A stretch of 64,000 bases of DNA, from the NCBI RefSeq assembly GCF_017355885.1, contig NZ_JAFEUU010000006.1:248001-312000 (forward strand), given 5' to 3'. Every line of letters begins with the position of its first letter. Position 1 is the first letter of the stretch. The notes under the pieces are model-generated. The model saw only the letters and a program-made list of their open reading frames with translations. It ran no database searches and was not told the DNA's origin. The stretch is from Sabulicella rubraurantiaca (GTDB lineage: Bacteria; Pseudomonadota; Alphaproteobacteria; Acetobacterales; Acetobacteraceae). Positions 3,021 to 9,730 of this stretch are shown here, one piece after another. Made by a program: the position numbers and the translations under genes.

Positions 3021-3910
3021 TCAGGCAACTCCGCGCCAGCGCGGCGCGATGCGGGGCGGCAGGCCGGGCAGGCGCGCCGGCTCGTGCAGCAGGGCGCCAG
3101 CGGCGGCGTCCAGCGCATCGTCGCGCGCCCCCTTCGCCTCCGGCCGCCATTCCGCCATCTCCCTCGCGAAGGGAGAGCGGAGGACATTGTCGTTGGCATA
3201 GAGGCGACGTGCCGCCAGCAGCGGGTCGAAGGCGGAGAGGATGCGTTGCGCCTTGGCGGCGCGGCTCGGCTCCTCCCGCACCTGGCAGGCCACCCCAGCC
3301 CGCGCCAGTTCCCGCCGCAGCATCGCGGGCAGGAAGCGACCGATGCCGTTGGTCTCGACGCGGATAACGGGCAGGTGCAGCGCCCGCGCCGCCTCCGCCA
3401 CCGCCCGGCATTGCTGCGTCGCCGGATCCTCTGGCGCATCCTCGCGCTGGGTGAGCCACAGGACGCGGTGCAGGTAGTGGTTGCCCTCGCCATCCGCATA
3501 GGTGGCGGCGAGACGGAGCCGTCGCCCTTGCCTTCGACGCGGCCGAAGGCAGGGTCCCAGAACCCGCCCCCCGCCACCATGCACCGCCCAAGCAGCCAGA
3601 GCTGCGCGCTTCCATTCGCCTCGCGGTATTCCGGCTCCTCGCCGTAGCTGATCAGCAGCGCGGGATCGAGCCGCGCCGCCGCTGCCGCGACGGGGCGCAG
3701 CAGCATCTGCCGCGTGAAGTGCAGCGGCCCGACCCGTGCCCGCAGCGCCTCGATGCCGGCCTCCGTGAAGCGCTCCGGCCAGGCGGATTCGCCGTTCCGC
3801 CCGAGCACCGGTACCTCCAGCCGGCCATAGCCGCGCAGGAAAGGCTCGCCGGGGCGGTAGAGGCTCTCCTCCGTGTGCGGCGTGCCGATAGCATGGAGCC
3901 GGACATGCGT
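3021..3910 (-). pseudogene. Phage terminase large subunit, C-terminal nuclease remnant (truncated and frameshifted)
   Basis: Encodes only the back half of a large terminase. It begins at the post-ATPase segment HAIGTPHTEESLYR, continues through a linker to FWDPAFGRVEGKGDGSV, and ends in the RNase H-like nuclease with IRVETNGIG and the closing acidic motif ARDDALDAAAG. The Walker A/B ATPase half is absent; the tail-tubular-like gene ends immediately upstream and no start codon fits this frame. Around 3511-3514 the frame breaks after GKGDGSV and resumes as AATYADGEGNHYL. Restoring one C would give the family pattern GDxSVLAA. The nuclease acidic residues survive, but the gene cannot encode a working terminase as read. 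Confidence 0.75.
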
Positions 3911-4478
3911 TCAGCCCCGAGCCGCGATGAGCGGGAAGCCGGACAGCGCCTGCACGGTGGCCTGCTGGCTGTCGGCGCGGCGCGCGGCCCGCAGCTCCGC
4001 CTCTGCCTGGCTGAAGAGCATCTGCGCGCGAGGTGTTCTCCGTCAGCGGGATGCAGAACTCGGCGGCGAGGCGCGCGACCAGCGCGGCGGCGAAATGCGG
4101 CGGGAACACCGCCTCATCGGGCCAGAAGACGTAGGTGAGCGTCACGGCAGGGGAGCCACAGTGCAGCCGGTTCTCCAGCAGCCGGTAGGCCAGGCCGCGG
4201 CCACGCGCACCGCCGCCCGCCGACAGGGCGCGCAGGAAGCCGGGCGGCAGCGCGAAGGCATGGGCAAAGTCGGCCACCGGCAGGGCGGCGAGACGCGGCA
4301 GCGTCTCCTGCCCCGTGGCGAAGCTCCAGGGATGCGAGGCGAGCAGCGCGTCGCGCGTGCCGGGATAGAGGGTGGAGGCGATCTCCGCCTCGGCGGTACC
4401 CTCGTCGAGCGAGGCGACGGCCTGGGCGCCGAGGCGCAACAGCGCGCGCGAGCAGAGTTCGAGGGCGGAGAGCGCCAT
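3911..4478 (-). pseudogene. Tail-tubular (gp11-like) phage protein, frameshifted
   Basis: The first part begins MALSALELCSRALLRLGA and continues TLYPGTRDALLASHPWSFATGQ, a pattern typical of T7 gp11-like tail tubular or head-to-tail adaptor proteins. After EFCIPLTENTSRA the frame is lost at a GC-dinucleotide run near 4023-4031. The next frame continues QMLFSQAEAELRAARRADSQQATVQALSGFP to a stop. Adding one GC unit restores a 189-residue protein, so the lesion is a two-base contraction or a one-base insertion. The second ATG is preferred because family members start MALxAL. An assembly error cannot be excluded. Confidence 0.65.
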
Positions 4479-4516
4479 CGGTGGAGGCTCCATGTTGGAA
4501 GGGTGCGGGAAGGGAA

Positions 4517-4550: not shown

Positions 4551-5384
4551 TCACTCCTTGCAGCGCATGCGGACGACGCCCGCATTGTCCACGAGCACCG
4601 CGCCCTGGCTCATCATCGAGTTGACGAAATGCGCCGCGCGATCGCCGTGCCAGGTGATGTCGGTGATCACCTCGCTCGCCGCCGCATGGCCCACGGCGGT
4701 GCGGTGGAAGAAGTAGCAGGAGCGGATCGTGCCCGCCGTGGTCAGGCCGGAATGCGCGATCCAGGTGGCGCCGAGCCAGCGCTTGGCTTGGCTGCCTTTC
4801 CAGGGCAGCTCGCTCTCGCCAACATACTGGGCGGAGGCGAACTCGGGCAGGGTCAGCAGCTCGCTCCACTGCTTCCAGCCGACCACGGCGAAGCGATTGC
4901 CGTCGTCGGGCACGTCCGCCTGGCCCAGCATCTCGAAGGCCAGCAGCACCTTGGCGCGGGTGAGGCCGTCATTGTCGGTCTGGCCGGATTGCGTGCCCAC
5001 CGCCTCGATGGTTGCGGTGTCGAGGGCGGCGATGATCAGCTCATCCGTCTTGCGGCCCAGCGCATAGGCGCCGGCGCTGGCCAGCACGTCCAGCTCGTTG
5101 GCGTTGGTCTTGAGGTCGTCGAAGCGGTCGATCCAGTCGCCCGCGTAGTGGTCCTGGAGGAAGCACTCGACGGCCGAGTACTCGATGTTCATCACCGGCA
5201 CGACCCCGTTGCGCGCCTTGGCGCCGGCGATGCCGCGGCCCACGCGCTTGAAGATCGTGCTGGCACCCTTCACGCCGGTCTTGGAGCGCACGGCAGGGCG
5301 CAGCTTGCTGCCTTGGCGCTGGTAGGCCTCATGCACCTCGGCCTGGTACTGCTTCACGAAAGCCTGATCGATCGTGCCGGACAA
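4551..5384 (-). CDS. Phage major capsid protein (podovirus type)
   Basis: A 277-residue protein with the hallmarks of the alphaproteobacterial podophage capsid family: an N-terminal helix VKQYQAEVHEAYQRQGSKLR, then VVPVMNIEYSAVECFLQDHYAGDWID, the AGAYALGRKTDELIIAAL segment, and a C-terminal THGDRA-like stretch ending VLVDNAGVVRMRC. It should form the icosahedral shell. The start is a TTG with AGGAGA seven bases upstream; no ATG fits better. It follows the scaffold gene after a 127-base gap and precedes a hairpin terminator. No lesion is visible. Confidence 0.82.
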   Translation of the reverse strand: MSGTIDQAFVKQYQAEVHEAYQRQGSKLRPAVRSKTGVKGASTIFKRVGRGIAGAKARNGVVPVMNIEYSAVECFLQDHYAGDWIDRFDDLKTNANELDVLASAGAYALGRKTDELIIAALDTATIEAVGTQSGQTDNDGLTRAKVLLAFEMLGQADVPDDGNRFAVVGWKQWSELLTLPEFASAQYVGESELPWKGSQAKRWLGATWIAHSGLTTAGTIRSCYFFHRTAVGHAAASEVITDITWHGDRAAHFVNSMMSQGAVLVDNAGVVRMRCKE

Positions 5385-5511: not shown

Positions 5512-6237
5512 TCAGCCGCCGACGAGGCGGCGGAAGCCCTCGGAAACGCGGCGGACGAATTCCGGCTCGCGCGAGCGCCAGTAGCGCGGGTCGCGCATCA
5601 TGCGGCGCAGCTCCGCCTCGTCCGGCTGGGATTCGGCGGCGCTGTCGCGTCCGAGCGCCGGCTCCGAACCGCGCATCATGCGTTCCATCGCCATGACGCC
5701 TTCGGCCGTGGTGGACAGCGCCTCCATGACGCCGGGCGGCAGCTTCGCGGCGCCCCAGGCGCGGATCTGCCCCGCCACGCGGCAGAACCGCTCCTCGCCG
5801 CCGAAATGGTTCCGCAGCACTTCCAGCTGGCGGTCCGCCTCGAATTGCTGCGCCGCCTCGGCGATCAGGGGCAGCAGCCGCTCCGCCGCCAGGTCGTAGA
5901 CCAGCTGCACCTGCGAGGAGGTGAAGCCTGCCTCGTGCAGCATCCGGTTCACCTCGCGATCCGGCGAGACCAGCTCGTGCTTCGGCGTGATCTCGTAGGC
6001 GTCGGGACTCTCCGGGATGCCAAGCATGGCGCGCCAGCGCAGCCTTTCCTCCTCCGGCGCCTCGGGACCAGGCGGTGCGAGGCGGGAGGGGAGGCGCCGC
6101 TCCAGCTCGCGATAGGATTTGAGCAGCGCCTCCACGCGCAGCTGGCCCGCCTCGCTGTCCCAGAACTTCTCCGGGACGTCGTCTGGGCGGGTCTTGCCGG
6201 CGGGGGCGGTGGCGGCGTCGAGCAGGCTGTCGGACAT
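5512..6237 (-). CDS. Phage scaffold/capsid-assembly protein
   Basis: A 241-residue acidic, helix-rich protein between portal and capsid genes, the position of T7 gene 9. The N-terminus has the DDVPEKFWDSEAGQLRVEALLKSY motif common to podophage scaffolding proteins. The middle (about 75-145) is predicted helical, with LVYDLAAERLLPLIAEAAQQFEADRQ. The C-terminus is basic and arginine-rich, as expected of the capsid-binding tail of scaffolds. It starts four bases after the portal stop. Assignment rests on the N-terminal motif, composition and gene order. Confidence 0.78.
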   Translation of the reverse strand: MSDSLLDAATAPAGKTRPDDVPEKFWDSEAGQLRVEALLKSYRELERRLPSRLAPPGPEAPEEERLRWRAMLGIPESPDAYEITPKHELVSPDREVNRMLHEAGFTSSQVQLVYDLAAERLLPLIAEAAQQFEADRQLEVLRNHFGGEERFCRVAGQIRAWGAAKLPPGVMEALSTTAEGVMAMERMMRGSEPALGRDSAAESQPDEAELRRMMRDPRYWRSREPEFVRRVSEGFRRLVGG

Positions 6238-6241
6238 GGCG

Positions 6242-7657
6242 TCACTCCTGGAGAAGGGTGGGGACGAGGATCTCGGCGGGCGCGCCGAGGGTGCGGGCGA
6301 GCCAGCGCGCGGCCGCGGGCGCATCCACCTGCGAGGCGGCCGTGACGCCCATGCGCGACACCGCGTCGACGAAGAGCAGCGTGTTCGCTGCGTCGGCGCG
6401 GCCCTGCACACGGGCGAGCGGGCTTTCGTAGCGGAGCTGCACGCGCCCCTCGCGCAGCAACTCCGGCGGCACCTCGCCGCGCCGGGCGAGGATGGCGAGG
6501 GACCGCGCGATCAGCGGCGTGAGCAGTTCGGATTGCAGCCCTCCATAGGTGGCGCCGAGCAGCCGCGCCGCCTGGGCAGAGCGTTCCAACACCTCCGTCG
6601 CCGTCATCTGCGCCTGCTGCGGCAGGCCGAGCCGGTCCGCCAGCAGCGCCTGCCGGATGCGGGCGCGGAGATCGCCCAGCACGAGCTGCGACACGTCGAA
6701 GGAGCCAGGCGCGGCGAGCGGCGTCAGCCCCGAGGAGCCCGGCGCCTTGGGGATGATGGCCCCGGGGACGAGCTGCACCGTGGCCGGGTTCAGCACCCCG
6801 TCATCCTCCGCCTGCCAGATGCCGGTGACGGCGATGGAGGCGTTCTTCAGCACGAGCTCCACCACGCGGTTCGCGGTGCGGATGTCGGGCAGCGCCTTGG
6901 TGACCGGGCCGCGGCCATAGGTCTCGCCGGGCGCCTTCAGCCAGCGGAAGGCGATGAAGGGCGCCTCGGGGAAGCCGCCCTGCGCCAGGAAGCACGGAGC
7001 ATTGGCGCAGGCGCTGTCGAGGATGGCGGCGTAGCGATACCCGAAGCGGTCGGGCCACACCGCCTCCACCACGCGGTGTCGCGCCGGCTCGTCTTCATCC
7101 TCCTCGCGTAGCAAGGGAGCGGGAAGCTCGGCGAAAGGGAAACGACGCGCGATCTCGGCGCAGGTCAGCCGCGTCTCGCGGAACACGGCGTCGAGCCGGC
7201 CGGACGGGCCTTCCTCCAGCACCGCGCTCAGCACCGGCACGGCGGTGAAGCGCAGCGCCGAGGCGTCGCCGGGCGGCGCCTCCTCCACCAGCAGGATGCC
7301 GGTGCCGGTGATGACGAGGTCCAGGAAGGCCTGGTGCATCTCCTGCGCGAGGTTGGAGCGGTCGAGATGCGCCTGCAGCGTTTCGGCCACGCGCTCCAGC
7401 GCGGCGGGCTCCGCCTCGTTCTCGCCGGCGGCCGGGGCGAGGCCGAACCAGCGCGACCAGGGCGGGGTCAGCTCGGCGAGGAGCGAGGCCGCGAGCTGTT
7501 CCGCCGCGTCGGCGGCGGTGGCGTCGAAGAGCGCGGCGGCATCCTCGGCACGCGGCAGGACATGGGCGTAGGCGTCGCGCCAACCGGCTTCGAGCGGGCG
7601 GCGACGGGCGGCGGCGCGGGATTGGCGGGCCAGCAGGGCTTCGGGCGTCATGCTCAT
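6242..7657 (-). CDS. Phage portal (head-tail connector) protein
   Basis: A 471-residue protein matching the T7 gp8-like head-tail connector family in length and motifs: SRAAARRRPLEAGWRDAYAHVLPR at the start, LLAELTPPWSRWFGLAP, an FMAFRW-type segment (PFIAFRWLKAPGETYGRGPVTKALPDIRTANRVVEL) and a C-terminal helix block with MTATEVLERS. It would form the dodecameric channel through which DNA enters and leaves the capsid. The frame is intact. Its ATG overlaps the stop of the preceding small gene (ATGA). Confidence 0.85.
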   Translation of the reverse strand: MSMTPEALLARQSRAAARRRPLEAGWRDAYAHVLPRAEDAAALFDATAADAAEQLAASLLAELTPPWSRWFGLAPAAGENEAEPAALERVAETLQAHLDRSNLAQEMHQAFLDLVITGTGILLVEEAPPGDASALRFTAVPVLSAVLEEGPSGRLDAVFRETRLTCAEIARRFPFAELPAPLLREEDEDEPARHRVVEAVWPDRFGYRYAAILDSACANAPCFLAQGGFPEAPFIAFRWLKAPGETYGRGPVTKALPDIRTANRVVELVLKNASIAVTGIWQAEDDGVLNPATVQLVPGAIIPKAPGSSGLTPLAAPGSFDVSQLVLGDLRARIRQALLADRLGLPQQAQMTATEVLERSAQAARLLGATYGGLQSELLTPLIARSLAILARRGEVPPELLREGRVQLRYESPLARVQGRADAANTLLFVDAVSRMGVTAASQVDAPAAARWLARTLGAPAEILVPTLLQE

Positions 7658-7878
7658 TCGCCCAGCAGCGACTTGCGCGTGACGGAGAGGGGCAGCAGCA
7701 CCCCGCGCGAGGAGGTGGCGACCGTGCCGGCCATTCCGCCTGCGGCGCGGCTCCGCGCCGCCTTGCGCGCCTCTTCCGCCACCGCGTCAGGCGCTGGGGC
7801 GGCGGCGACGGAGACAGCGGAAAGCGGCAGGGATGCCTCGACCACGACGGGCTTCGGGGCGCGAAACAGGCCTCCCAT
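7654..7878 (-). CDS. Small conserved phage protein preceding portal
   Basis: A 74-residue protein beginning MGGLFRAPKPVVVE and ending SVTRKSLLGE, with an alanine-rich middle. From recall, short proteins with this MGGLFR start and a GxxGTxxTSxRGVL segment precede portal genes in alphaproteobacterial phages; their function is unknown. GAGGAGA lies nine bases before the ATG, and the stop overlaps the portal start. It is the first gene downstream of the second LexA-type box, so it heads the structural operon. Confidence 0.72.
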   Translation of the reverse strand: MGGLFRAPKPVVVEASLPLSAVSVAAAPAPDAVAEEARKAARSRAAGGMAGTVATSSRGVLLPLSVTRKSLLGE

Positions 7879-7925: not shown

Positions 7926-7940
7926 GAACAAAAAGAGAAC
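7926..7940 (-). promoter_or_regulatory. LexA-type SOS box (second of two)
   Basis: Direct repeat GAACAAAAAGAGAAC, read GTTCTCTTTTTGTTC on the transcribed strand: an exact GTTC-N7-GTTC, the alphaproteobacterial LexA motif. It lies 48 bases upstream of the small gene heading the portal-scaffold-capsid operon, the same distance as the other box has to its gene. Its T-rich spacer also forms the tail of a hairpin terminator. Confidence 0.72.
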
Positions 7941-7968
7941 GCCCGGGACGTGCGAAACGGCCCGGGCG
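7940..7968 (-). terminator. Intrinsic terminator ending the two-gene unit
   Basis: Complementary CGCCCGGG and CCCGGGCG arms (8 bp) separated by 13 bases are followed, on the minus strand, by TTCTCTTTTTG. This is a classic hairpin plus T-tract about 70 bases past the stop of the upstream gene pair. The T-tract coincides with the SOS box of the next operon. Confidence 0.6.
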
Positions 7969-8037
7969 CTCAAAGTTGAAGATTGGGAGAGCAGGAATGG
8001 GCCAGCGGACGCAATTTGCCCGTTGACGAGGGAAGTC

Positions 8038-8484
8038 TTAACGCGGCGTTGCCGCCAGAGTCAAGTTTTCTTTCCTAGACACTCCGAGATTCTGCAACCC
8101 GCGATATAGGCCAAGGGGGGTCCATGCACGCGGTGCCGCCGGGCCCAGAATCGCGCGGCAGACCGAGACGCAGGAGAAGGGTGCGAGGAGAAGGCGGCTG
8201 CCGCGTCCCGGGGCCGTGGGCGCGAAGGGGCCGAGGACACGCATTCCGGCACGGCGGAAGAAGCGCGGCAGATCGAAATCCGGCGTGACCTCAGGCCGCG
8301 CGCAGGCCAGGCGGCCGGTGAGGGGGTCGAGCACCGTCCAGCCCGAGGAATCATGCAGCGCGGCGAAGCAGTGGCGGAAGCCGGGGCGCAGCAGCCTCAG
8401 CCAGCGATGATCGGCGCGCCCGGAGAAGACGATCCAGACGCACTGGGAGTCCGGCGCCGCGCCGCGCGCCGTGAGGCCGCTCAT
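8038..8484 (-). CDS. Unknown phage-associated protein, possible permuted papain-like fold
   Basis: A 148-residue soluble protein. Visible elements are an aromatic N-terminal part with WIVFSGRADHRWLRLL, then FRHCFAAL, DSSGWTVLDPLTGR, and a C-terminal SCVSVCRAILGPAAPRAWTPLGLYRGL. The order His (RHC), Asp (DP), Cys (SCV) recalls circularly permuted NlpC/papain-like proteins of phages, but this is a guess from motif spacing. The start overlaps the stop of the upstream gene (ATGA), so both are one unit. The likely terminator follows downstream. Confidence 0.65.
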   Translation of the reverse strand: MSGLTARGAAPDSQCVWIVFSGRADHRWLRLLRPGFRHCFAALHDSSGWTVLDPLTGRLACARPEVTPDFDLPRFFRRAGMRVLGPFAPTAPGRGSRLLLAPFSCVSVCRAILGPAAPRAWTPLGLYRGLQNLGVSRKENLTLAATPR

Positions 8485-8924
8485 CGCGCCTTCGGGAAGG
8501 GGATGATCTCGGCGCTGGCTACCGGCGACTCGGCTGTGGCGGCAGGGGCGATCATCACGATGCCCTTGACGCGCAGCGGCCATTCCAGGCGGTTCATGGC
8601 CTCGCGCCAAAGCCGGGCATCGCCGCGCTCCGAGGCGTGGCGCGGGTTGGGAGCGGTGCCGCGCTCGCCCCAGATCCGCATGATGCGAGCATGGGCGACC
8701 TCGATGCGGCGCTGGCGGTACAGGCGGTCGAGGCACTTCACCACGTCGTCCGGCTCGCAGGGGCGCGGCACCAACCCCTTGCCGGCGGAGACGCGCGCGC
8801 CGTCGCGCCGCGCGACCAGCGCGGACATGGTCCAAAACCACGCCTCCTCCGCCGAGGCGAAGGGGACGGTGCGGGCCAGGGTCGCGAGGACCGGGGAATG
8901 GCCGCTGCGGGGGGCGAGGGGCAT
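8481..8924 (-). CDS. Unknown phage-associated protein, first gene of an SOS-box unit
   Basis: A 147-residue protein without signal peptide or membrane segment. Distinctive stretches are EEAWFWTMSALVARRDGAR, a Cys-Glu-Pro-containing RPCEPDDVVKCLDRLYRQRRI, HARIMRIWGERG and LWREAMNRLEWPLRVKGIVM. These look like a conserved helical domain, but I cannot name a family. It lies 48 bases downstream of a perfect GAAC-N7-GAAC box and is coupled to the next gene by an ATGA overlap. Possible roles include a small terminase-like DNA-binding protein or an early phage regulator; neither is supported by a motif. Confidence 0.65.
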   Translation of the reverse strand: MPLAPRSGHSPVLATLARTVPFASAEEAWFWTMSALVARRDGARVSAGKGLVPRPCEPDDVVKCLDRLYRQRRIEVAHARIMRIWGERGTAPNPRHASERGDARLWREAMNRLEWPLRVKGIVMIAPAATAESPVASAEIIPFPKAR

Positions 8925-8971
8925 GGGAGAAAGGACCTTTCCAGCTTGGTTCCGGCCGAATCCGACCTTGA

Positions 8972-8986
8972 GAACATATTAAGAAC
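8972..8986 (-). promoter_or_regulatory. LexA-type SOS box (first of two)
   Basis: Direct repeat GAACATATTAAGAAC (GTTCTTAATATGTTC on the minus strand), an exact GTTC-N7-GTTC match to the alphaproteobacterial LexA motif. It is 48 bases upstream of the minus-strand unknown gene and about 88 bases upstream of the divergent S24 regulator, so it could act on either but is better placed for the former. Confidence 0.75.
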
Positions 8987-9073
8987 ATAACCTGCGGTTG
9001 TGGGGAGGAGCAAGCGGAAAGAAGCAACATTTTCCTATTGCCTGCTGACGATGGGCCTATAAAGGTGCCGCCC

Positions 9074-9730
9074 GTGAAACATGACGACATCTGGCGCGCG
9101 ATCGACTCGCTGGCGGCCGAGAATGGTCTCAGCGCGTCGGGGTTGGCGCGGCGCGCCGGGCTGGACCCGACCGCTTTCAACCCGTCGAAGCGTATCGGGC
9201 CGGACGGGCGCGCGCGCTGGCCCTCGACCGAAAGCATCTCAAAGATCCTGTCCGCCACCCAGGTCGGGATCGAGGGCTTCGCCGCGCTCGTCTCGGGCCA
9301 GCCGGCCCTGCCCTCAACTCAGCGCGGCCCGCGCCCTGGGGTGGGGCGGCGCGTGCCGCTGATCGGCTTCGCCCAGGCGGGCGGCGAGGGATTTTTCGAC
9401 GATGGCGGCTTCCCGGTCGGCGGCGCCTGGGACGAGATCTCCTTGCCCGAGATCCCCGACCCGCACGCCTATGCGCTGGAGATCTCCGGCGACTCGATGG
9501 AGCCGGTGTTCCGCGATGGCGACATGGTGATCGTCTCGCCCTCCTCGCCCATCCGGCGCGGCGACCGCGTCGTGGCCCGCACCCGCCTCGGTGAGGTGAT
9601 GGCGAAGGAGCTGAAGCGGCAGAGTGCCAAGCGGATCGAGTTGCGCTCCCTCAACCCGGCGCATCCCGACTACTCCTTTGAGATCGAGGACGTGCAGTGG
9701 ATCCATCGGATCCTCTGGGCCAGCCAGTAG
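9074..9730 (+). CDS. S24-family (CI/LexA-like) transcriptional regulator
   Basis: A repressor of about 218 residues with an N-terminal helix-turn-helix (LSASGLARRAGLDPTAFNPSKR) and a C-terminal S24 peptidase domain. The cleavage-site candidate is the Ala-Gly in FAQAGGEG, the catalytic Ser is in SGDSMEPVFRDGD, and the Lys is in EVMAKELKR, so RecA-stimulated self-cleavage is possible. The GTG start has AAAGGTG six bases upstream, and the protein then opens with the HTH. It is divergent from the phage cassette and shares its SOS-box intergenic region. It is not LexA itself: the HTH differs. It could be the cassette's repressor or a chromosomal regulator. Confidence 0.85.
   Translation: MKHDDIWRAIDSLAAENGLSASGLARRAGLDPTAFNPSKRIGPDGRARWPSTESISKILSATQVGIEGFAALVSGQPALPSTQRGPRPGVGRRVPLIGFAQAGGEGFFDDGGFPVGGAWDEISLPEIPDPHAYALEISGDSMEPVFRDGDMVIVSPSSPIRRGDRVVARTRLGEVMAKELKRQSAKRIELRSLNPAHPDYSFEIEDVQWIHRILWASQ

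Follow-up and report, generated by a model that had tools for sequence, protein, structure and literature searches.

The stretch of DNA analysed here (the window, 64,000 nucleotides of Sabulicella rubraurantiaca) contains a phage-derived cassette on its minus strand whose first gene, u147, is preceded by a LexA box at 8972-8986. Judging from its conservation in relatives, this site is very probably a LexA operator, and it is likely, with some reserve on the later steps, that it works as proposed below, controlling the gene that opens an element of podovirus type, domesticated long ago. The element is a candidate SOS-controlled podovirus-type gene transfer agent (GTA). A second site of the same form, at 7926-7940, had been taken for another LexA box, and turns out to be the tail of a conserved terminator.

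The exact motif GAAC-N7-GAAC occurs only twice in the window on either strand, as GAACAAAAAGAGAAC (7926-7940) and GAACATATTAAGAAC (8972-8986), the two places given in the original prediction. Both sites have T/A-rich cores and read GTTC-N7-GTTC on the minus strand, which is the coding strand of the cassette, and both lie, also as predicted, at the same offset of 48 bases from an ATG start (7878 and 8924). That a pair with equal geometry argues for function does not follow, given that at least two sites were found in 27 of 100 shuffles of the window (mean 0.86) and that the 7926 site is not conserved. In the whole genome the motif occurs 78 times versus 68 for the reversed control motif, so that the bare motif is near chance level and counting it was discarded as evidence for function; it is therefore the comparison with relatives, and not the number of sites, that separates the 8972 site from the 7926 site.

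The 8972-8986 box (GTTCTTAATATGTTC on the coding strand) is located between a divergent S24 regulator (9074-9730, plus strand) and u147 (8481-8924, minus strand). A -35 element (TTGCTC, 9008-9013, minus strand) was recognised by inspection 17 bases from a -10 element (TTATGT, computed position 8985-8990, minus strand) that overlaps the box, with a similar TTTATG/TTATG-GTTC overlap in relatives; this TTGCTC-N17-TTATGT promoter is not listed by a consensus promoter scan of the region. Of 41 loci compared (40 family relatives and the window), 30 have an exact box in the corresponding position. The 11 misses comprise L060, where the contig ends, five loci with one mismatch (L033, L045, L049, L067, L068) and five with at least two (L032, L048, L050, L057, L064). 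An exact box is also present in 46 of 66 named loci, a number that rises to 53 when one mismatch is allowed. The 66 are the usable S24-u147 intergenic regions from 80 named loci, L199 having been set aside because of an insertion and the rest left out because S24 or u147 is missing from the contig; the 41-locus and 66-locus sets share genomes and are not independent. Of 32 exact boxes on the coding strand across the 573 kb of the 41 loci, 30 fall at the u147 promoter; the opposite strand has 3, and two control motifs give 0 and 3. In loci of the class, the exact box is found in just 8 of 19.

The same motif is present at genes of the SOS response. In this genome it lies upstream of lexA, recA and an imuB-like gene (presumably imuB, with a weak Pfam match to impB/mucB/samB only), the three genes at which the original prediction had proposed looking for it, and also upstream of ssb and radA. 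Within the family, 21 of 24 genomes have it in front of lexA; for recA the count is 10 of 26 with an exact match and 22 of 26 with up to one mismatch. The recA box is missing from G045 and G154, which have lexA, and from G044 and G124, which do not. Two further SOS-box-like sites in the window's own genome (L385 and L387, contig C63) sit no more than about 0.6 kb from a pair of closely similar genes, which we take to be metallophosphatase-like and whose products begin M-R-L/V-H-V-L-S-D-L-H-C-E-F.

Species without lexA provide a natural control. The search for lexA gave no match in 2 of 26 genomes of one set (G044, G124) and in 4 of 29 of a second set (L191 lying outside that search). The lexA-less genomes of the second set are those of Rubritepida flocculans, Roseococcus sp. 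SKW89, Roseococcus thiosulfatophilus and a Rubritepida MAG, and the box is absent from all four of these named cassettes; in the same genus group and by the same search, the four lexA-bearing genomes all carry the box, as does the window. The GCAATAGGAA element (TAGGAA) that adjoins the box is kept in all four lexA-less cassettes. These four cases may represent one evolutionary event.

Eight cassettes of the named set (L167, L172, L173, L187, L193, L196, L201, L208) have no box within one mismatch in genomes that do bear lexA, and therefore LexA control is not universal; L170 has one mismatch. An inverted repeat like AGGTGTTGACACCT lies over the u147 -35 in L050, L057 and L064, and also in L053, which has the box; a replacement of LexA by another repressor is possible in such cases. 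In Roseicella frigidaeris (L049/L199), S24 is split from u147 by some 3.5 kb of inserted DNA that, on inspection, looks like a mobile element.

The element itself, as seen in complete copies, is a short-tailed-phage head, tail and terminase cluster of about 12-14 kb in Acetobacteraceae, with the order S24, u147, x148, p74, portal, scaffold, capsid, tail tube A, nozzle, internal protein, fibre, terminase, 102-aa protein and hydrolase. Portal, scaffold, nozzle and terminase have T7/podovirus family matches, the terminase large subunit of the complete copy L031 being of the T7 type and well over the family cut-off. A second complete copy, L038, lies in a 5.4 Mb contig, where its neighbours are a trypsin/PDZ protein and a lysylphosphatidylglycerol synthase. 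Among the proteins scanned in these two copies there was neither an integrase nor a replication gene, and a Pfam scan of ten predicted proteins in and around L038 gave no integrase. The gene content generally expected of a GTA, phage structural, terminase and lysis genes but none for replication or integration, is found in L031 and L038 as far as their proteins were scanned (with the lysis genes weakly assigned) and not in the broken window copy. Gene order is alike in the 40 relatives, to the extent of their contigs.

In the window, all cassette genes are on the minus strand, and profile matches (Pfam, PHROG) bear out the earlier description of a phage-derived cassette with capsid genes. u147 is followed by x148 (8038-8484), a cassette-linked protein present in 69 of 80 named loci and in 0 of 18 capsid-less loci, p74 (7654-7878; a small phage protein, phrog_831, 2.8e-06), the portal or head-to-tail connector (6242-7657; Head-tail_con, 2.3e-122), the scaffold (5512-6237; Phage_T7_Capsid assembly protein, 2.3e-16) and the major capsid protein (4551-5384; Phage_capsid_2, 4e-74). 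Beyond these lies a degenerate ORF (3021-4493), in which a remnant of tail tubular protein A and the distal terminase large subunit are joined, so that fragments of two genes are fused in one reading frame; the terminase is in two pieces in different frames, and residues 1-186 of its L031 counterpart are unmatched. A 102-aa phage protein (2432-2740; phrog_29007, 5.1e-25), for which a lysis accessory role is a guess, precedes a cell-wall-hydrolase-like protein (1965-2435), the proposed endolysin, whose Hydrolase_2 match is weak and under the cut-off (E 0.051) and which is present in 63 of 80 named loci. The frame at 1603-1953, tentatively labelled DUF952-like, has no Pfam match. About 6 kb common to all 40 relatives fetched is absent from the window copy as assembled, and its front part (box, u147, late leader, portal, scaffold and capsid) is open. 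As assembled, the window element appears broken and should give no working particle.

The capsid gene is found in 47 of 200 family genomes and is usually single-copy; a second, more distant match exists in G044, G047 and G059, and a distant match alone in G177. At a capsid profile score of at least 348 bits, 58 of 385 genomes of the class have a match, under 35 family labels by hand count; in two of the 58 the gene is interrupted by stops. Complete or near-complete gene order was found in other alphaproteobacterial families (L360, L364, L366, L367, L370) and a partial element in several other class loci. In G278, G401 and G332, the capsid gene is remote from the locus with S24, u147 and the portal or sits on a different contig, and the element may be split in them. 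Class genomes of 0.9-1.5 Mb (e.g. G295, G414, G584) keep a single open capsid relative, which suggests selection for it. The locus is shared by part of the relatives: pyrD (named from Pfam) is found within the fetched stretch in 16 of 40 relatives, across genera, and 7 of the 18 genomes without the capsid have it close to S24. This flank is not universal, as the different neighbours of L038 illustrate. The dN/dS ratios are 0.02-0.35 for portal and capsid in 12 pairs and 0.07-0.51 for u147, and the element is, by this measure, under purifying selection. Element distances correlate with those of RecA (r 0.75, 25 genomes, 0 of 5000 permutations), and of 17 supported element splits 9 are shared with RecA and 6 conflict with it, so some transfer is possible.

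These data bear on the reading of the cassette as an ordinary defective prophage, or as a circulating temperate podovirus group, with the box as its usual induction switch. It would account for structural phage genes next to a CI-like repressor, for the decay of the window copy and the damage in a few others (a capsid stop in G072, with a portal gap in L054, and capsid stops in G243 and G427), for the 12-13 kb segments entered in IMG/VR as viral contigs, for the distant capsid relatives in phages of Pelagibacter and Vibrio and for the six splits that conflict with RecA. Nevertheless, the close capsid clade spans the 58 class genomes mentioned, the pyrD flank is common to several genera and dN/dS is low; neither integrase nor replication genes were found in the copies examined, a search of 72,556 plasmids gave no capsid match at 1e-5, and the closest capsid of an annotated phage is only 43.5 percent identical, with an unannotated 5 kb fragment reaching 55 percent. 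We regard this reading as unlikely: the element of the relatives looks old and maintained, and the Acetobacteraceae cassette is probably not an ordinary prophage.

If particles are made from such a maintained element, they could serve something besides DNA transfer, for example the killing of competitors, and the upkeep of an element without replication genes, together with an unlinked tailspike locus, would fit such a use; yet the T7-type terminase large subunit kept in L031 points to DNA packaging, which leaves this alternative improbable.

The original prediction had two operons headed by the two boxes; what is seen instead looks like an early unit, preceded by the 8972 box, and a late operon behind a terminator. 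The late promoter (TTGACT-N17-TTAAGA, 8036-8064, minus strand) was recognised by inspection and is absent from the consensus scan listing. It is abutted at the -35 by a TAGGAAAGAAAA element (8066-8077, minus strand), a proposed S24 site that corresponds to a TAGGAAAAA-CTTGAC pattern in relatives, and it is followed by a conserved leader hairpin sequence, CAACGGGC..GCGTCC (8007-8025, minus strand), shared with the leaders of relatives. An intrinsic terminator comes next (about 7937-7971, minus strand), a GC-rich stem-loop with a fold z-score of -4.24 that runs into TTCTCTTTTTGTT on the cassette strand; it is one of 2 listed by a consensus terminator scan of the region, a number not above chance (shuffle mean 1.0). 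In relatives, the order is TAGGAAAAA-CTTGAC-N17-TANAAN, a hairpin sequence that is nearly invariant, a stretch rich in C and the terminator. A strict pattern picked out promoter and hairpin in 54 of 69 regions; a terminator starts 84-102 nt past the -35 in 34 of them, and in the other 20 it was not detected by the script or is placed elsewhere. The leader shows covariation: among 30 leaders, picked because both parts had been found in them, 16 of 23 pairs have changed in both partners (14 of the 16 belong to the terminator), with 0 of 500 shuffles as high and sliding partners giving 6-10; the short inner leader hairpin hardly varies. A promoter, a leader element and a terminator thus lie ahead of the late genes, the arrangement of processive antitermination of the Q/GafZ type, and from these features the structural genes seem normally cut off by the leader terminator, like late operons controlled by antitermination.

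The 7926-7940 site (GTTCTCTTTTTGTTC, minus strand) is the end of this terminator stem plus its T-tract. A terminator is present at this place in relatives, and the exact box between u147 and the portal gene is found in 0 of 39 relatives holding the region (the fortieth, L060, ends short) and, among named loci, in 1 of 67 (L184). The prediction of LexA boxes conserved upstream of homologous cassettes has therefore held for the 8972 site, which shares its motif with lexA and recA, and failed for the 7926 site, which was rejected as a second LexA operator; since the latter is an unconserved terminator tail, the equal 48-base spacing is a coincidence. That both sites are LexA operators for two operons is accordingly very improbable, although both are exact, with T/A-rich cores, and binding of LexA to GTTCTCTTTTTGTTC in this one genome is conceivable in principle. 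An exact motif with equal spacing can thus mislead, and relatives alone told the likely operator from the terminator tail.

The S24 protein is a repressor-like protein of the LexA/CI type (Peptidase_S24), with CI chains as the best matches in a PDB search (E 0.0003), and its residues Ala102, Gly103, Ser141 and Lys178 are conserved in 130-133 of the 139 loci aligned, a set in which some genomes count twice. It is distributed more widely than the cassette, in 92 of 120 family genomes, some copies being just 34-50 percent identical. Among 18 capsid-less genomes, u147 was found in 10, the exact box in 10 and both in 8; u147 adjoins S24 without any cassette in 10 of the 18, and another job for u147 is therefore possible. 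Several of these capsid-less Acetobacteraceae (L321-L338) keep S24, the SOS box and u147 without structural genes. That the 8972 box is the operator of its usual neighbour S24 rather than of LexA, as its position between S24 and u147 would allow, is hardly credible and was rejected, for S24 and TAGGAA are retained in genomes that lack lexA and the box alike, and the motif is common to the promoters of lexA, recA, the imuB-like gene and ssb.

The 147-aa protein u147 has no family match in Pfam, PHROG or NCBIfam, no significant sequence match in the PDB, no fold match at E 0.001 and no match at 0.01 in 50,697 phage records, so an assignment of function by homology was abandoned. It is present in 26 of 190 class genomes. 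It is nevertheless the foremost candidate for a regulator acting at the late terminator, and the role of late-gene antiterminator or activator is proposed for it.

The same leader also occurs away from the cassette. The hairpin sequence, with one mismatch allowed, is present in 9 of 16 genomes, with 1 hit for the reversed control, and in five genomes, including that of the window (G000:C47:342074), it stands with its own promoter of the same type at an unlinked place. Of ten stretches examined for extra leader copies, L409, L412, L414 and L415 have no such promoter, and these four were discarded as chance matches. In unlinked L406, L407 and L411, the leader heads an operon for a small protein and a tailspike of the pectin-lyase type; the L407 operon also encodes a podophage fibre protein. 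Matches to the small protein come from 31 of 36 genomes, among them G124 and all 25 genomes with the cassette; the match is weak in G038 (where it lies beside the capsid), G045, G154 and G197. The leader (up to three mismatches) is upstream of the small protein in 20 of 30 loci, and a LexA box was rejected as a rule there, being exact in 1 of these 20 and one mismatch away in 3. In the capsid-less L413, the leader copy adjoins S24/u147, with a small WHYK protein carrying the same leader directly after u147. The tailspike locus of the window genome (L408, at the position given above) looks interrupted, with a 466-aa frame versus 645-841 aa in relatives.

The preferred reading, that of a maintained element under LexA control, would work in intact relatives as follows. 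In the undamaged cell, LexA, and probably also the divergent S24 repressor, would hold u147 off, and transcription of the late operon would stop at the leader terminator. Upon DNA damage, active RecA would lead to the cleavage of LexA and probably also of S24, which has the same self-cleavage residues; u147 would then be made and RNA polymerase would pass the late terminator, allowing expression of the portal, scaffold, capsid, tail, terminase and lysis genes, while the unlinked tailspike operon with the same leader would be switched on alongside. The resulting particle would carry host DNA in the manner of a gene transfer agent, because a terminase is present and no replication or integration genes were found. 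We infer binding by LexA and S24, particle production, and DNA packaging and transfer from this organisation. A further-reaching reading, which we hold only tentatively, is that of a new podovirus-built GTA lineage spread over much of the Alphaproteobacteria, which LexA would place under SOS induction, which u147 would gate by antitermination and whose recipients an unlinked tailspike would choose; as part of the same tentative reading, such a lineage would be common in Acetobacteraceae, where RcGTA-like clusters are reported absent.

If true, DNA damage would directly trigger gene-exchange particles in a large bacterial group that, to our knowledge, is not known to make gene transfer agents, and repair and gene transfer would be linked via one LexA site. 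Complete copies exist in several named strains, which makes the question of DNA movement testable now.

No published description of the element was recognised in a literature coverage without most subscription papers and bioRxiv preprints, and the available parts of PMC11841831 and PMC10783043 hold nothing on it. RcGTA-like clusters were found in 0 of 62 Acetobacterales genomes, according to a table in PMC6821227, and PMC9662315 names Rhodogtaviriformidae, Bartogtaviriformidae and Brachygtaviriformidae. As described in PMC11150451, RcGTA and CcGTA resemble the element in being phage-derived clusters (about 14 kb in CcGTA), in having a repressor, RogA, over a short activator unit, and in having accessory genes at other promoters, and the late cluster of CcGTA (Caulobacter) is antiterminated by GafZ. 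The element differs from them in that its head and tail genes are of the podovirus/T7 type and, judged by these family matches, not the siphovirus-type genes of RcGTA-like agents (Rhodogtaviriformidae), and in that its control would be by LexA and probably S24. A LexA site has been predicted at the GTA cluster of Dinoroseobacter (PMC6473078), so the idea of a GTA controlled by LexA has a precedent. The FpGTA of Faecalibacterium is also alike, by description, being GTA-like, thought to be podovirus-like and encoded at two loci (PMC12946183), but it belongs to another host group. Phages of Pelagibacter of the HTVC010P / EXVC031P kind share the capsid family of the element, although their records are of 34-35 kb, capsid identity is 31.5 to 43.5 percent and u147 was found in none of the phage records searched. 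Phages of this kind are short-tailed. The early/late logic of lambda offers a last comparison: the succession of a late promoter, a leader terminator and structural genes would parallel, in architecture only, that of lambda pR'-tR' and Q, while u147 matches no solved structure significantly, by sequence or by fold.
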